Below are positions 2,650 through 9,708 of a stretch of DNA of 64,000 nucleotides, piece by piece. The notes under the pieces are model-generated. The model saw nothing but the letters and a program-made list of their open reading frames with translations, searched no databases and was not told the origin of the DNA. The stretch's first letter is position 1; every line of letters starts with the position of its first letter. The DNA is taken from assembly GCF_018687785.1 (NCBI RefSeq), contig NZ_LTBL01000001.1, forward strand, positions 1,603,780 to 1,667,779, written 5' to 3'. A program made the position numbers and the translations under genes. Origin of the DNA: Methanovulcanius yangii. GTDB taxonomy: Archaea > Halobacteriota > Methanomicrobia > Methanomicrobiales > Methanomicrobiaceae.

Positions 2650-4680
2650 ATGAAACGCAGCGGCACCATCCACCCCTTCCGGCCACCCCAACCTCCATCC
2701 GGAACCACCGGACGAAAGGACGGTGACGGCCGCTTTGCCGATTCACTCCGGTTCATCGGTCCCGGCCTGCTCCTTGCCATTGCGGCAGCAGGAGAGAGCG
2801 GTATTGCCGAGGCAATCGAGATCGGGGCACACTTCGGCTATGCCCTCATCTGGGTGATCATCCTCACCCTCGCATTCAAGTTCGCCTTTGCAAACGGCAT
2901 CGCCCGCTACACGCTCGTCACCGGAGAGACGATCTTCGAGGGGCTCGGGCGCATCCCCGGTCCCCGGCACTGGGCCAACTGGCTCGTGATGGCCATCTAT
3001 CTCCTCGAGATGTTCGCCTTCGGGGGCATGCTCCTTCTCGGCGCCATCTTCATGGACTACCTCCTCCCCGGCATATTCTCGCCGGAGATCATTGCGGTCG
3101 TGACCATCACCGCCTCCATCCTGCTCCTCTGGAAGGAGTCCTATGAACGCCTCGAGAAGGTGATCCTCGCCATCGCCCTCCTCCTCTTCTTCGGCATCGG
3201 ATTCTCCCTCATGGAGTTCCCCCTCGCACTCGGGGCGGTCGGGACCGGCCTTGCCCCGGCAATCCCCGAGGGCTCGCTCCTTGCCATCATGGCCCTGATG
3301 GGAGCCGTGGGATCCGGCCTCAACCTCCTCCTCTACTCCATCTGGCTGAAGGAGAAGACCGGAGGGGCCCACGGCATCACCTATTTCCGGCGCTGGATGC
3401 CCGCCATCAACCTCGACCTCGCTCTCGCCTTCCTCTTCATCGGCGTGATCACCGTCCTCTTCATCTCGCTGGGAGTCACCGGGTTTGCCGTCTCCTATCT
3501 TCAGCACGGCGAGGCGATATCCCTCGACGCCCTCATCGCCCAGGTCCTCTATGTGATCGCGTATATCCCGCACGGGGTCCCGATCTTCCTCGTCTTCGGG
3601 TATTTCGTCATGTTCGGTGCCGTCCTGACCGGGATGGACGGTCGCGCACGGGCGATCGCCACGTTTCTCCGGGGGGAGGTCGGCGTGCGGTCGACCGAGC
3701 ACGACCTCTACCGCCTCCTCCTGATGCTCTTCTCCCTCATGATCCTCATTGCGGTCTTCGCAGGCGAACCGCTTGCCATCGTGCACATGGTTTCGGCCGT
3801 GGCCGCCATCGCCTTTGCCCTGATGGGATTCGTGCTGATGTATCTGGACGTGCATCTGCCGGAGGAGGCGCGTGGTTCCCGCCTCTGGCTGCTCGTCATA
3901 GGCGCGGGCAGCACCGTCTTTCTCCTGATGGCGCTCTTCATGGAGGAGGCCGTTCTCGCCTTCGGTCTCCCGCTTGCAGAACGGCTCATCGTCGTTGCCT
4001 TCGTCCTCTTCCTCTTTGCCCGGACGAAGCTCTTCCGATCGCTCATTGCCGGGACGGCCGGGCGGTGGGACCGGCTCTGGGCCGTCTTCGTCTTCGGCGC
4101 CCTCTCGGTGTACGGGACATTCCGCGGAATTCCCTACGGAGATCTCATCATCAACTTCCGTGACCTGGGACCCATCATTGCAGGGATGGCCGGCGGACCT
4201 GTCATCGGGGCGGGGGCAGGGCTCATCGGAGCCCTGTACCGCTACCCCCTCGGGGGAAGCACCGCCACCGCCTGCGCCGTCGCGACGGTTGCGGCGGGCA
4301 TCATCGCGGGCCTCTACACGAAGATGTACCGCGGCGACATCACCGTGCTGAGGGCGTGTCTCCTTGTTGCGATCATCGAAGCCGTGCATATCTTCGTACT
4401 CGTGCCGCTCTTCTCCGACATTCCCTCCTTTGCCGCTTTCGTCGAGATCGTTCGGGTCACCTTCCTTCCGATGGTCGCCGCCCAGTCGCTCGGCGTGGTC
4501 ATCTACCTCTTCATTCTCGCCGACGAGGGGCTCTCCCTGAAGGAGCGGTTTGCCGCGCGTCCCGGCCCCGAAAAGGGGAAAAAAACGCAGGGAGACGGGG
4601 ATGACGGGAAAACCACGGAATCCTGCACCGTGGAGACGGAATGCCTGCCAGGAGCGCCGGAAGGAGGCGATGAGCAGTGA
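2650..4680 (+). CDS. Nramp-like transporter fused to a LytS-type 5TM domain
   Basis: A 676-residue membrane protein with two parts. Residues about 35-430 have the Nramp/LeuT-like layout, starting with RFIGPGLLLAIAAAGESGIA and continuing through about eleven hydrophobic segments. In place of the TM1 metal motif DPGN the sequence is GESG, and in place of the TM6 MPH motif it is SGL (MGAVGSGLNLLLYS). Residues about 465-640 match the 5TMR-LYT sensor module of LytS/YhcK: NFRDLGPIIAGMAGGPVIGA, then GLIGALYRYPLGGSTATA. The tail is hydrophilic. The start follows AGGGAG at 2637-2642. Loss of both metal motifs argues against ordinary Mn/Fe transport. The stop codon overlaps the start of the binding-protein gene, so the two products are probably made together. 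The fusion is clear from sequence; the function is unknown. Confidence 0.8.
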   Translation: MKRSGTIHPFRPPQPPSGTTGRKDGDGRFADSLRFIGPGLLLAIAAAGESGIAEAIEIGAHFGYALIWVIILTLAFKFAFANGIARYTLVTGETIFEGLGRIPGPRHWANWLVMAIYLLEMFAFGGMLLLGAIFMDYLLPGIFSPEIIAVVTITASILLLWKESYERLEKVILAIALLLFFGIGFSLMEFPLALGAVGTGLAPAIPEGSLLAIMALMGAVGSGLNLLLYSIWLKEKTGGAHGITYFRRWMPAINLDLALAFLFIGVITVLFISLGVTGFAVSYLQHGEAISLDALIAQVLYVIAYIPHGVPIFLVFGYFVMFGAVLTGMDGRARAIATFLRGEVGVRSTEHDLYRLLLMLFSLMILIAVFAGEPLAIVHMVSAVAAIAFALMGFVLMYLDVHLPEEARGSRLWLLVIGAGSTVFLLMALFMEEAVLAFGLPLAERLIVVAFVLFLFARTKLFRSLIAGTAGRWDRLWAVFVFGALSVYGTFRGIPYGDLIINFRDLGPIIAGMAGGPVIGAGAGLIGALYRYPLGGSTATACAVATVAAGIIAGLYTKMYRGDITVLRACLLVAIIEAVHIFVLVPLFSDIPSFAAFVEIVRVTFLPMVAAQSLGVVIYLFILADEGLSLKERFAARPGPEKGKKTQGDGDDGKTTESCTVETECLPGAPEGGDEQ

Positions 4681-5843
4681 CGAGAGTTCTCGAGATCTTC
4701 CCGTATATCCTCGCCGTCTGCCTCATCGGTGCGACCTCTGCCGGGATACTAATCGCCGTCCCGTATTCTGGTGAGAACGTGACGATAGATGTGGGAGTCC
4801 TTGTTCCCCTCACGGGGGATCTTGCGGTCTACGGCGGCGATGTGCTGGAGGGCATCAATATAGCCGTCGATGAGATCAATGAAGGAGGCGGCATCGGGGG
4901 AAAGGATGTCCGCATCATCTGCAGGGACACCGGAGGTGACCCGGACCGGGCCGCCGCGATGATGGAGGACCTGGCGGATCAGGGCGTCCCGGTCGTCATC
5001 GGGCCGGTAACCAGCAGCAGTGCGATTTCGGTTGCCCCCATCGCCGAGAAGAAGCAGATCGTCATGATATCCCCGACCGCCACGACCCCCCTCCTTTCCG
5101 GGGCGGGCCGGTATGTCTACCGGACGATCTCCTCGGATACCTACCAGGGCCGGGGCATGGCAACGGTCCTCCGGAGTCTCCACCCGGAGGTCAACAGCGT
5201 CGCGGTGCTCTATATCGAAAACACCTACGGCGCCGGCCTCAGGGAATCCTTCACCGCTGCATGGACCACACAGGGGGGGACGGTCGTCTGCGAAATCCCC
5301 TTTGAGAACGGCCGCACCGATTTTAGCGCGGTCATCGCAGCCGTCCGCGATTCGGATGCCGACGCCGTTGCCCTGATCAGCTACCTTCCGGAGGCGAAGG
5401 CCATCTTCCGGGAGGCGGCCCGGCAGGAGCTGGGGGGGCCCTGGATAGCCTCGGACGCCATCGTCACCGCGGAGTTCATCGCCGCGGCAGGGCCCGCGAC
5501 GGAGGGGATCGTCGCGACGATCCAGGCAAACCAGGTGCAGTCCCCTTCCTTCATCACCGAATACTGCCGCCGGACGAATGCCACCTCCGTCAACTGGCAG
5601 GCGGCCTATGCCTACGATACGATGATGATCATCGCCGAAGCGATCGAACACGGAGGATATACGGCGGACGGCATCCGCAACCATCTTGATGTCATCCGCT
5701 ACCTGGGCATCTGCGGGCCGAAGGTCTTCGACGAAAACGGGGATATTCCCCCTGCATTCGATGTGATGCGGATCCGGGACGGGAGATGGACCCGCGTCCC
5801 CTGGACCGAACTCGCGGAAGCGAGCGAAGTCCGTCAGCATTGA
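4677..5843 (+). CDS. Membrane-anchored branched-chain amino acid-type solute-binding protein
   Basis: A 388-residue protein starting at GTG 4677, overlapping the previous stop by four bases, with AAGGAGG just upstream. An N-terminal hydrophobic helix (residues about 8-28, ILAVCLIGATSAGILIAV) has no lipobox cysteine at a typical site and may be a membrane anchor or signal. The rest is a type I periplasmic-binding fold of the Leu/Ile/Val (Peripla_BP_6) family: IDVGVLVPLTGDLAVYGGDV, IGPVTSSSAISVAPIAE, and VNWQAAYAYDTMMIIAEAI. No LivH/LivM/LivG/LivF genes are nearby. The translational coupling to the Nramp-like/5TM protein suggests it supplies ligand to that transporter or sensor; this is inference. 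Confidence 0.87.
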   Translation: MTRVLEIFPYILAVCLIGATSAGILIAVPYSGENVTIDVGVLVPLTGDLAVYGGDVLEGINIAVDEINEGGGIGGKDVRIICRDTGGDPDRAAAMMEDLADQGVPVVIGPVTSSSAISVAPIAEKKQIVMISPTATTPLLSGAGRYVYRTISSDTYQGRGMATVLRSLHPEVNSVAVLYIENTYGAGLRESFTAAWTTQGGTVVCEIPFENGRTDFSAVIAAVRDSDADAVALISYLPEAKAIFREAARQELGGPWIASDAIVTAEFIAAAGPATEGIVATIQANQVQSPSFITEYCRRTNATSVNWQAAYAYDTMMIIAEAIEHGGYTADGIRNHLDVIRYLGICGPKVFDENGDIPPAFDVMRIRDGRWTRVPWTELAEASEVRQH

Positions 5844-6065
5844 AGCCAAAATACGACAGATATGAGATAGGTATAAATACAGCTTCCAAATGTTAATCAT
5901 ACACAGCATATAAATGAACCCATTGCATAGCATAAATTTATATTAGATTGTGCCAAACTACCTGAAAACAGAGATGCATGAAGGGCCCCATTCCTTCCGT
6001 AGATATGAATTCCCTAATACATCTCAAGAATTTGAATTGCATACCAGATTGTAAGGAGACAATGA
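5844..6065 (+). promoter_or_regulatory. AT-rich intergenic region with promoter for the acetyltransferase
   Basis: A TATA-like TTTATATTA lies at 5937-5945 in a markedly AT-rich block, which would give a leader of about 95 nt. A ribosome binding site AAGGAG is at 6053-6058 just before the start codon. No open frame of note is present. Confidence 0.45.
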
Positions 6066-6611
6066 ATGGCACATCCTACCCTGACAACAGAACGGCTGCT
6101 CCTCAGGCCGTTTACCCCCGACGACGCCCGTTCCATTGCCGGCCTCGTTGACAGGGCGTACAACCCCGCCCGGCAGGAAGATGTGGCGGTGAATGAGAGC
6201 ATCGATATCATTGAAGACCGCCTGGCGTTCAACCGCGGCTGGGCCTGGGACGGTTCTTCGGTAACCTTTGCGGTCGGTATTGCGGAGACCGGCAGCCTCA
6301 TCGGAACCAGCACCCTGATGAACATCAACCCCGAACACCGCAATGCTATGCTCAGCCTCTGGATCGCGCCCGATCACCGGTGCAGCGGGTACGGTACCGA
6401 GGCCGCGGAGGAGAGCATCAGATATGGGTTTGATACTCTCGGGCTTCATCAGATCTATGCGATCCGGCTTCAGGACAATCAGCTCTCTGCAAAACTCATG
6501 AAACGGCTGGGTATGCGGCAGAAAGGGGTACTCGAGGAGTATTTCCTCCATAACGGCACCTATTACGACTGCATCCTCCATGCCGTCATGGAGAGTGACA
6601 GATCACCCTGA
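6066..6611 (+). CDS. GNAT N-acetyltransferase (RimJ/RimL-like)
   Basis: A 181-residue acetyltransferase of the GNAT fold that would transfer acetyl from acetyl-CoA to an amine, often a protein N-terminus in the RimJ/RimL-like branch. It opens with the family phrase LTTERLLLRPFTPDDARSIA, has the central strand region LIGTSTLMNINPEHRNAMLS, the CoA-binding segment DHRCSGYGTEAAEESIRYGF, and the C-terminal NQLSAKLMKRLGMRQKGVL. Length fits the family. Two overlapping ATGs occur at 6062 and 6066; only 6066 is in this frame, with AAGGAG just upstream. It appears to be a single gene with its own promoter; the substrate is unknown. Confidence 0.9.
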   Translation: MAHPTLTTERLLLRPFTPDDARSIAGLVDRAYNPARQEDVAVNESIDIIEDRLAFNRGWAWDGSSVTFAVGIAETGSLIGTSTLMNINPEHRNAMLSLWIAPDHRCSGYGTEAAEESIRYGFDTLGLHQIYAIRLQDNQLSAKLMKRLGMRQKGVLEEYFLHNGTYYDCILHAVMESDRSP

Positions 6612-6876
6612 TATACACATTTTCCACGGATAAAATTGCATTTTCCCGCCAAAACAACTGAAATACACCAAATAATCATTTTTCAGCAATTTATCCATAA
6701 TTTATCCATGAAATTACCGCAAAAACCAAAGAATATTCGCGAAATCAAGCGGATATTCCTTATTCTATAGTTTTTTACGATCAGAAATCCACCTCTCGGT
6801 ATCCCCACACGCGTGGGGACCAGTATCGCAGGGGCAGCCGGAATCAGGGAATCGGGCTGCCTCGGGAGGTTTCCAG
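6612..6876. other. AT-rich intergenic region with a strong 18-bp hairpin
   Basis: About 170 AT-rich bases (6612-6780) are followed by a hairpin at 6802-6819: TCCCCAC and GTGGGGA around a 4-base loop. With its flanks (CGGT before, CCAG after) it resembles a single type I-E-like CRISPR repeat. No second copy is present within the following spacer distance, so it is not an array. It may equally be an operator or RNA hairpin ahead of the flavin reductase gene. Confidence 0.35.
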
Positions 6877-7500
6877 ATGCAGCAAAATACAGACAACCAT
6901 ACAGCGTCCGGGACGGCGGTTGCCAAAAGGGCATCGAAGAGAAAAGTGGGCACCAATCTTTTTCTCTGCCCGATGCCTGTCACCATCGTCGGGACCATGA
7001 ACGGCTCCAAACCCAATTTCGTCTCCGCCGGCTGGGTCACCCGGGTCAATACCGCCCCTCCGATGCTCGGGGTCGCCATCGCAAAATCGCGCATCACCCC
7101 CGCATCCATCCTGGACGAACAGGCCTTCAGCGTCAACTACCCGAACCAGGATCTGCTCATCGAGACCGACTACTGCGGCCTCGTCTCCGCAACGACCAAC
7201 GACAAGTCCGGACTGTTCGATACGTTCTACGGCGAACTCGGAAACGTTCCGATGATCGAAAACTGCCCGATGAGTGCGGAATGCGCCCTCGTGGAGATGA
7301 TCGATCTCCCCACCGACTACCTCTTCATAGGCGAGATCGTCGCCGCCTATTCGTCGGACGACTATTTCAGGAACGGAGTACCGGATGTCCGGAAAGTCAA
7401 CCCCATTCTTCTGACCATGCCCGACAATTCGTACTGGACCATGGGCGAGTATGCCGGGAAGGCATGGACCCTTGCCCAAGGCTACAAAGGCAGGGCCTGA
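6877..7500 (+). CDS. Flavin reductase-like FMN-binding protein
   Basis: A 207-residue member of the flavin reductase-like, FMN-binding split-barrel family. Family features are the N-terminal PMPVTIVGTMNGSKPNFVSA, then WVTRVNTAPPMLGVAIAKSR, FSVNYPNQDLLIETDYCG, and FIGEIVAAYSSDDYF near the C-terminus. In methanogens such proteins are annotated as flavin reductases or flavoredoxins, passing electrons from NAD(P)H or ferredoxin through FMN; the partner is not shown by the sequence. The ATG at 6877 follows GGGAGGT, a good ribosome binding site. Confidence 0.87.
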   Translation: MQQNTDNHTASGTAVAKRASKRKVGTNLFLCPMPVTIVGTMNGSKPNFVSAGWVTRVNTAPPMLGVAIAKSRITPASILDEQAFSVNYPNQDLLIETDYCGLVSATTNDKSGLFDTFYGELGNVPMIENCPMSAECALVEMIDLPTDYLFIGEIVAAYSSDDYFRNGVPDVRKVNPILLTMPDNSYWTMGEYAGKAWTLAQGYKGRA

Positions 7501-7632
7501 ATCCTGCACAGGATGGGGACAAAACCCCCTTTTGTCTCTTCCGGAGCCCTCCCGGGGGAGAAAACTCAAATACCGTGCACGAGAGTATTCAGATATGGGA
7601 CCGCAGGGCCCCATTCCAGGGTGAATGCATAC

Positions 7633-7821
7633 ATGTGGGTTAAGGTTGAACGACCCGACGGGGAGATTGTGGAAAAGGAAGTCCCCCCCCGTGCGTATCT
7701 TACCATCGGTGACGTGCTGGAAGACGGATCCGTCATCATCGATCTCCCGTATTCGGAAGACGATGACGACGATATGACAGCCTATGGCCTCTACGACGGG
7801 GATGATGACGACTTCCTCTGA
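7633..7821 (+). CDS. Small acidic hypothetical protein
   Basis: A 62-residue protein beginning MWVKVERPDGEIVEKEVPP and ending in a very acidic tail (DDDDDMTAYGLYDGDDDDFL). I chose the ATG at 7633 because AGGGTGA at 7617-7623 is well placed as a ribosome binding site; the frame is open further upstream to 7513, but that part looks non-coding. The fold is not recognised; the start could form a small beta barrel-like strand pair. It sits alone between the flavin reductase and the potassium channel. Confidence 0.55.
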   Translation: MWVKVERPDGEIVEKEVPPRAYLTIGDVLEDGSVIIDLPYSEDDDDDMTAYGLYDGDDDDFL

Positions 7822-7927
7822 ATCTTCCGCCTGCTAAAGACGGCATACGGGGGCAGGGAGCCGCCGGTGCGGTAGAGTACCCTGACATATGGCGTACAGA
7901 ACAGGAGACGCCATAACGGAGAGTATC

Positions 7928-8701
7928 ATGGGAGAGAAGAACACAGGATGCCAAAGAAAGGTGCTCGGACGGTGGTATGGCCGGACGGAGAATCGATTCC
8001 TCTTCCTCCTTGCAAGCCTCATACTCATCATTTTTGTCTATCCCTTCGCCGAATCGTTCGATACGGGAGGCCTCATCCTCAGGGTGCTGACGACGGCCAT
8101 TATCATCCTCAGCGTCTACGCCCTTCTCGACGTAAAGCGCCACTTCATCATCGCCGTACTCCTCCTCATTCCGACCGTCGTCATGTCGTGGGCCGAATAC
8201 CTTGGACAGGAGACGGCCTTCATCAGCACCTTTGCCCTCCTCACCAACATGGCATTCTTCCTCTTTGTCACCCTCATCATACTCCACCGCATCCTCACCA
8301 CCCGCATCGTCACGAAAGACACCATCTACGGAGCCATCTGCGTCTATTTTCTCTTCGCCTATCTCTGGGGCGCCCTCTATCTCTTCACCGCCCTCACAGT
8401 GCCGGGCTCCTTTGCAACATTCTACCCCGATACCGCGGTGCTCCCCACCATCGGGTTCGGTGAAGCCATGTACTTCAGCTTTGTTACGATAGCCACACTC
8501 GGCTACGGAGATATCATCCCTGTCGGCAATGTGAGCAGGTCGCTTGCGATGCTCGAGGCCGCAACGGGCGTCCTCTTCGTTGCAACCTTCGTCGCCCGCC
8601 TGGTGGCCCTTGCCGGGACCGGCAGCCTTTCCCCCACGGACGAAAAGATGGGGGATACGGGCTCCTCCCGAAAAGACGAGGAGGAAGAGGAGGAGAGATG
8701 A
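7928..8701 (+). CDS. Potassium channel protein (two-pore-helix ion channel family)
   Basis: A 257-residue membrane protein with about six hydrophobic segments and a potassium selectivity filter TLGYGD at residues 190-195, preceded by the pore helix GEAMYFSFVTIA and followed by the inner helix AMLEAATGVLFVATFVARLV. The charged C-terminal tail (KDEEEEEER) has no RCK domain. The ATG at 7928 follows GGAGAG; an alternative in-frame ATG at 7889 has no good ribosome binding site. Its stop overlaps the start of the ABC ATPase gene (ATGA at 8698), so the channel is probably co-translated with the exporter, an unusual pairing. Confidence 0.88.
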   Translation: MGEKNTGCQRKVLGRWYGRTENRFLFLLASLILIIFVYPFAESFDTGGLILRVLTTAIIILSVYALLDVKRHFIIAVLLLIPTVVMSWAEYLGQETAFISTFALLTNMAFFLFVTLIILHRILTTRIVTKDTIYGAICVYFLFAYLWGALYLFTALTVPGSFATFYPDTAVLPTIGFGEAMYFSFVTIATLGYGDIIPVGNVSRSLAMLEAATGVLFVATFVARLVALAGTGSLSPTDEKMGDTGSSRKDEEEEEER

Positions 8702-9708
8702 TACCGGCAAAGAAGGAGGCCGGTGACGTCGCAGCTGCCCCGGCTTTTGATGACGTGATCATCAGAGTCGACGGCCTTCGCCACCGTTACGGCGATTTCG
8801 CGGCGGTGGACGGCGTCTCCTTTGCCATCCGCAAAGGGGAGATCTTCTCCTTTCTCGGCCCCAACGGCGCCGGAAAGAGCACCGCCATCAACGTCCTGAC
8901 CACGCTCCTGCGCATCCAGGAGGGGACGGTGACGATTGCCGGCCACGACCTCGCCCGCGACCCCCGCCGCGTCCGGGAAGACATCGGCATCGTATTCCAG
9001 GAGGTCACCCTCGATCGGGATCTGACGGTGGCGGAGACGCTGGAATTTCACGGCATGCTCTATGGCCTCCCACGGACGGAACGGCGGAGACGAATCGAGG
9101 CACTCCTCGACCTCGTCGAACTGACCGCCTGGGCAAAAGTCCGCACCAAACGCCTCTCAGGCGGTATGAAACGCCGCCTCGAGATTGCCCGCGGCCTCAT
9201 GACCCGCCCGGCCGTCCTCTTCCTCGACGAGCCCACCATCGGTCTCGACCCCCAGACCCGCCTGAAGATGTGGGACTACCTGCAGGCAGTGAACCGCGAG
9301 GGTACGACAATCTTTCTCACCACCCATTACATGGACGAGGCCGACCGGCTCTCCGACCGCATCGCCATCATCGACCATGGAAAAATCATCGCCGAAGGGA
9401 CGCCGCTCTCGCTGAAAAACGCCCTCGGGGAGGACATCATCATGCTCTGCACCGGTGACGACCAGGGCGCAAAGGAGGCCATCACCGGGATGGACGGGGT
9501 GGCCCGGATACAGGAGACCACCGCCGGCCTCACCCTCCTCGTCGACGGCGACGGCACCCACATCCTTCCGAGGGTGATGCACCGGCTGGAAGAGGCGGGC
9601 ATCGGCGTGATCTCCGTCAACCTGAAGAAACCCTCCATGGACGACGTCTTTGTCCACTTCACCGGCCGCGAGCTCCGGGACGCCACCGCCCGGGAGGAGA
9701 GGGAATGA
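8698..9708 (+). CDS. ABC transporter ATP-binding protein (DrrA/daunorubicin-type)
   Basis: A 336-residue ATPase of the DrrA-like ABC-2 exporter group. Motifs in order: Walker A GPNGAGKST (residues about 57-65), Q-loop IVFQEVTLDRDLTV, signature LSGGMKRRLEIARGL, Walker B VLFLDEPTIGLDPQT, and the switch histidine in FLTTHYMDEADRL. The C-terminal extension with KKPSMDDVFVHFTGRELR is typical of the DrrA branch. It overlaps both the channel gene upstream and the permease gene downstream by four bases. The exported substrate is unknown; lipids or hydrophobic compounds are typical of the family. Confidence 0.93.
   Translation: MIPAKKEAGDVAAAPAFDDVIIRVDGLRHRYGDFAAVDGVSFAIRKGEIFSFLGPNGAGKSTAINVLTTLLRIQEGTVTIAGHDLARDPRRVREDIGIVFQEVTLDRDLTVAETLEFHGMLYGLPRTERRRRIEALLDLVELTAWAKVRTKRLSGGMKRRLEIARGLMTRPAVLFLDEPTIGLDPQTRLKMWDYLQAVNREGTTIFLTTHYMDEADRLSDRIAIIDHGKIIAEGTPLSLKNALGEDIIMLCTGDDQGAKEAITGMDGVARIQETTAGLTLLVDGDGTHILPRVMHRLEEAGIGVISVNLKKPSMDDVFVHFTGRELRDATAREERE

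Follow-up and report, generated by a model that had tools for sequence, protein, structure and literature searches.

What does a membrane protein do that joins, in a single chain, a half resembling the Nramp transporters and a module of the LytS-type sensors, and whose gene overlaps with that of a binding protein? The question is raised by a locus in a stretch of 64,000 nucleotides (the window) from Methanovulcanius yangii, an archaeon with a genome of 2.29 Mb and relatives in the Methanomicrobiales. Our preferred reading, to which we give a probability of roughly 40%, is that the fusion and its substrate-binding protein (SBP) work together in a dedicated membrane complex, in which a carrier with an S-component module built in depends on the SBP to move an amino-acid-like carboxylate. 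By itself, the fusion has been known since 2024. Partipilo and Slotboom then described NRAMP-like domains N-terminal to 5TMR, the same domain order as in the window fusion, as prevalent in archaea; they singled this out as the sole 5TMR assembly whose fused domain is an integral membrane transporter, took the NRAMP part for a metal transporter, and suggested a bridge of ion transport and sensing (PMC11109136). In the portion of their main text consulted, neither an SBP or kinase gene nor tandem 5TMR or replaced metal motifs come up. No further report of an Nramp with a 5TMR, or with an SBP in Methanomicrobiales, was found in the open literature, supplements being outside the search. The conserved pairing of fusion and SBP in one branch of the family therefore appears to be unreported. 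A first-pass annotation of the window, made by a model from the letters alone, had held that the whole arrangement would be new; its anatomy (carrier-like half, LytS-type module, tethered orphan SBP) stands, but the fusion was already in the 2024 article (PMC11109136).

The fusion gene (2650..4680, + strand) codes for 676 amino acids, and two Pfam matches fall within this one open reading frame (ORF): PF01566 (Nramp) at residues 52-399 (E 2.7e-15, above the cut-off) and PF07694 (5TM-5TMR_LYT) at residues 460-625 (E 2.5e-34). An AlphaFold2 (AF2) model computed from an alignment of 28 sequences (pLDDT 84, pTM 0.75) has about eleven helices up to residue 431, then a helix at 433-457 and then the C-terminal module. 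By these helices, and by the unfused relatives, the Nramp-related half extends over residues ~31-431 (2740..3942, +), and the 5TMR-LYT (S-component-like) module with its preceding helix over residues ~433-625 (3946..4524, +). The top matches of the model in the PDB are Nramp structures, first that of Bacteroides fragilis (10ky/10le, TM 0.84 by target length); further ones are EleNRMT (0.81) and an entry labelled YcsG-FabL model (0.81). Unfused Nramp-related proteins of the same order, 417-440 amino acids long, match residues 29-432 only, so that the fusion joint lies just after helix 11. The C-terminal half can thus be rejected as an ordinary extension of a known Nramp family, because these relatives stop where the module begins. 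Helix 12 may be the counterpart of H0 in LytS-type sensors; if the N-terminus is cytoplasmic, as in Nramps, the helix count would put the loop with the ligand motif of the module outside and the C-terminal tail in the cytoplasm. In the SBP-linked fusions this tail has a pLDDT below 50 and no output domain, and no Pfam match to a cytoplasmic kinase output domain was found in the window fusion. A search of a viral structure library gave no relevant match.

One argument for a carrier is its altered but conserved substrate site. Profile alignment to the B. fragilis Nramp (10ky) bore out the proposal that the metal motifs are missing: GESG (residues 48-51; 2791..2802, +) stands at the DPGN position of transmembrane helix (TM) 1, and SGLN (residues 222-225; 3313..3324, +) at the MPHN position of TM6. 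Among 28 aligned fusions, G48, E49 and G51 of TM1 are invariant, as are G218, G221 and L224 in the TM6 region, W232, and D330, R332, A333 and A335 of a TM8 motif, GMDGRARA (residues 328-335; 3631..3654, +). Exceptions at TM1 come from outside this alignment (GR-G in L057/L058, VDS in L134; L numbers designate the related loci), and the unfused relatives have small-residue motifs of their own (GWVG or GWIG in TM1, GTGL or GSGF in TM6). The TM1 and TM6 motifs are near-invariant in halves that have a mean pairwise identity of 54% in the SBP-linked set, and hence the site is under selection and not decaying. To judge from these alignments, the metal site is exchanged for another conserved site and was not lost through decay. 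A dead or decaying carrier was rejected on the near-invariance of the TM1, TM6 and TM8 motifs across many genomes, and a plain metal transporter because the metal motifs are replaced rather than merely varied. We do not equate E120 of TM3 with the conserved TM3 glutamate of Nramps, as the profile alignment puts them in different columns. With neither DPGN nor MPH, the fusion falls outside the canonical Nramp (SLC11) family; its PF01566 match and Nramp fold place it among the Nramp-related proteins, a recognised but mostly uncharacterised and paraphyletic group (PMC12873925).

The C-terminal half is a 5TMR-LYT module by its PF07694 match and by the NXR motif of LytS-type sensors (PMC11109136). 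Both motifs read there in the first-pass annotation are present, NFRDLG at residues 502-507 and LYRYPLGG at 529-536. Aligned with Escherichia coli BtsS, NFR (residues 502-504; 4153..4161, +), the NXR ligand motif, corresponds to N70-R72, and the likeness of the second motif to HRY is correct by position, with HRY at residues 98-100 of BtsS and YRY in the window protein. The pyruvate site of BtsS consists of R72, R99, C110 and S113 (PMC10653868). Three of these four residues are retained, as R504, R531 (4240..4242, +) and C542 (4273..4275, +), together with N70 as N502; S113 is replaced by A545. The equivalents of R72, R99 and C110 were all lost in four SBP-linked members (L042-L045), and those of R72 and C110 in the kinase-linked paralogues described below. 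An S-component fold has been proposed for 5TMR (PMC11109136), and the weak match of members with two such modules to the energy-coupling factor (ECF) riboflavin S-component family agrees with this proposal.

The second gene (4677..5843, +) codes for a Leu/Ile/Val-type (LIV-type) SBP of 388 amino acids with an N-terminal hydrophobic helix at residues ~10-28. It overlaps the fusion gene by the four bases GTGA, as had been noticed, and a Shine-Dalgarno-like GGAGG within the end of the fusion gene (4663..4667, +) lies nine bases 5' of the GTG. The class is clear from the Peripla_BP_6 match (PF13458, E 1.1e-55), from the nearest solved relatives in the PDB, which are LIV-type binding proteins, and from S113 and T136 (conserved in 18/19 and 19/19 orthologues), which align with the ligand-site Ser/Thr of this type. 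No lipobox was found in the window SBP, and L041 is the only lipoprotein-like member among the 19 orthologues. Residue 239, a glutamate here, is E, Q or D among orthologues and aligns with the residue that we take to be the acidic partner of the ligand's amino group (ammonium) in LIV-type proteins. By these residues, the ligand likely bears a carboxylate; an amino acid is plausible, though perhaps not in every genus. Peripla_BP_6 domains also occur in other contexts in Methanomicrobiales, i.e., in one ORF with a legumain-like Peptidase_C13 (L147:1314-3539 and L150:7677-9818), and elsewhere two binding-protein domains share an ORF, Peripla_BP_6 with a Bmp/PnrA-like domain (L146:772-2952) and a tandem of Peripla_BP_6 (L148:5795-8080).

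Another argument is the linkage of both genes. Among 52 distinct full-length fusions collected in the search for other proteins with both domains, 17 lack an adjacent SBP gene; the other 35 have one right next to them on the same strand, downstream in 34 cases and upstream in one. A maximum-likelihood tree of the Nramp half places all SBP-linked rows in a single clade (25/25, support 100/97); the four rows linked to a kinase make up a second clade (100/99), and the five unfused rows stand apart as a group (100/99). The two genes are therefore linked in relatives too, and retention throughout the clade supports an operon more strongly than a single sequence could. Even where the gene order is reversed, in L049 (Methanospirillaceae), adjacency is retained. 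Conserved as it is over dozens of genomes, the pattern is not due to chance. Distances between fusions correlate with those between their SBPs (Mantel r 0.93 for the Nramp half and 0.86 for the 5TMR half). A phylum-wide sample of 393 genomes contained full-length fusions in members of the order and in a single genome from elsewhere. When 85,000 prokaryote species were scanned with just two peptide patterns, Methanomicrobiales alone were recovered, although divergent bacterial cases could escape such a scan.

The suspicion that the binding protein lacks a permease of its own proved true genome-wide. BPD_transp_2, the LivH/LivM-type permease, gave no match in the window genome (96% complete), and the only Peripla_BP_6 protein there is the SBP of this locus. 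The SBP was accordingly rejected as part of an ATP-binding cassette (ABC) importer. Across the order, BPD_transp_2 is present in 28 of 120 genomes, none of them among those found with an SBP-linked fusion.

Put together, these data suggest the following mechanism. With its N-terminal helix as anchor, the SBP would sit on the outside of the membrane and capture a carboxylate-bearing, probably amino-acid-like solute; once loaded, it would dock on the fusion and hand the solute to the LeuT-fold, Nramp-related carrier, whose metal site would have been rebuilt into a conserved small-residue/glutamate site (GE.G in TM1 and SGLN in TM6). The S-component-like module, its ligand-site loop facing outward, may act as docking platform, as allosteric ligand sensor or as both. 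Carrier and SBP seem to be the constant core, since L042-L045 lost the 5TMR pocket yet retain both. We favor transport because the SBP is conserved, no ABC permease is available, the altered site is conserved, an output domain is lacking and some SBP-linked members dispense with the 5TMR pocket. Cells need the Nramp-related YcsG and PxpT to grow on 5-oxoproline (PMC13274462), so the superfamily may move amino-acid-like solutes. The functions of the pair in binding and transport are, for now, predictions from sequence.

Several observations weigh against the SBP-dependent carrier. Sister fusions with a kinase gene or a kinase-like tail, and orphan SBPs beside Cache-type receptors, favor sensing. 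The variation at E239 implies that the ligand may differ between genera. The correlation of distances is partly explained by shared species history, and the absence of LivHM tracks family lines, i.e., it partly reflects shared ancestry and agrees with a functional replacement without proving one. TM1 of the AF2 model is a single unbroken helix, unlike that of working LeuT-fold carriers; local confidence is low, and we draw no inference from it. Lastly, there is a claim that YcsG imports Mn (PMC10448178).

Close behind the carrier comes a receptor, which we regard as possible: the SBP would present its ligand to a non-transporting fusion, whose signal would go to a soluble histidine kinase with its gene elsewhere, the binding protein being the input much as in LuxP-LuxQ. 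Relatives supply part of the case. In the window genome, the gene of a paralogue, 46% identical, follows a REC-HisKA_2-HATPase gene at a distance of 34 bases; the arrangement, also found in Methanogenium species, corresponds to the kinase-linked clade. Two longer proteins, L057 (1167 amino acids) and L058 (1152), have two 5TMR modules and a C-terminal tail of 300 amino acids for which no Pfam match was found. For the model of this tail, from two sequences and with a pLDDT of 55, nearly all of the 50 PDB matches listed are histidine kinases or entries related to kinases, a resemblance that we treat as a hint only. Besides, 5TMR modules are sensors, and the window protein keeps three of the four pyruvate-site residues. 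Orphan Peripla_BP_6 proteins elsewhere in the order adjoin a Cache-HAMP protein (L149) or a Cache-PAS-kinase (L151), which again would fit an SBP serving a receptor. However, the SBP-linked members have neither an output domain nor a conserved neighboring kinase gene, several of them lost the 5TMR pocket, and the near-invariant core motifs of TM1 and TM6 suggest an active substrate site. Tandem modules are not restricted to L057/L058: two 5TMR modules also occur in L055/L056, and three in L134/L142, which lie outside the order; in the Nramp-related protein of L142 (7328-10708) the three are consecutive. At L151, the Peripla_BP_6 gene stands directly before the dCache-PAS-histidine kinase gene (5560-8956), and that genome has nine Peripla_BP_6 matches and no BPD_transp_2 among the matches listed.

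It is improbable that the fusion is still a transporter for Mg, Mn or a chelated metal while a carboxylate or chelate is sensed by the 5TMR and the SBP. This would bridge ion transport with sensing, as the 2024 authors read it (PMC11109136), and is compatible with the PF01566 membership, with the transport of Mg by the Nramp-related EleNRMT (PMC12873925) and with the claim of Mn import by YcsG (PMC10448178). In several genera (L039-L045) the SBP gene is also convergent with three metal-ABC-like genes (an ABC-3 permease, an ATPase and a ZnuA-like protein), by sequence reading only. Against it, the metal-coordinating positions of DPGN and MPH are replaced, and the SBP belongs to an amino acid/amide class rather than to a metal-binding one. 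Mere co-expression of the two genes, with an unrelated function for the SBP, seems very improbable: operons can join unrelated functions, but here the pair was kept in the entire clade and through the swapped order of L049, and the window genome has no LIV-type ABC partner for the SBP.

Several known systems share features with the SBP-dependent carrier we favor. TRAP and TTT transporters consist of a binding protein and a secondary carrier, with no ATPase. The fusion-SBP pair would have this principle in common with them, but their membrane folds are unrelated, the pair combining a LeuT/Nramp fold, an S-component fold and a LIV-type SBP. The LIV-type (HAAT) ABC importers have the same SBP family, but the window genome has no LivH/LivM-type permease. 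LytS-type receptors (BtsS and YpdA) share the 5TMR/S-component module, NXR, and the R and C of the pyruvate pocket; unlike them, the window protein has the module C-terminal to a carrier and lacks a kinase domain. EleNRMT, YcsG/MntG and PxpT have, like the window fusion, the PF01566 fold without DPGN/MPH; in the portions available, their reports do not describe them with a 5TMR fusion or a binding protein, and the GE.G/SGLN pair is that of the window fusion.

An AI-2E-family membrane protein (1444-2628) ends 21 bases 5' of the fusion gene and is not kept even in the nearest relative (L035); an AI-2E gene is near the fusion in the Methanogenium loci L036 and L037, with a PAS-histidine kinase gene between. 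Further on, a small membrane protein (7889-8701) has a TLGYGD selectivity filter like that of potassium channels. In Methanocalculus taiwanensis (L060:4902-6820) and a related metagenome-assembled genome (MAG) (L061:4902-6828) the fusion is split into two ORFs at about profile position 243-263, those of L060 overlapping by four bases, and a third MAG (L062/L063) has contig ends at about this position.

The pairing points to an uptake or sensing complex of a new type. Tentatively, we could be dealing with a new, ATPase-free class of binding-protein-dependent secondary carrier, of which sister forms would have turned into kinase-coupled receptors. If the SBP-fed form transports, a LeuT-fold carrier would be joined with an amino-acid-type binding protein, a combination for which we know of no characterised system, and the chemistry of the Nramp fold would extend further beyond metals. 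Transporters and receptors have folds in common, but to our knowledge families caught with partners of both types are rare. Here, one archaeal family has an SBP as input in one clade, a histidine kinase as output in its sister and a kinase-like tail in a third, and the step from carrier to receptor becomes directly testable in it.

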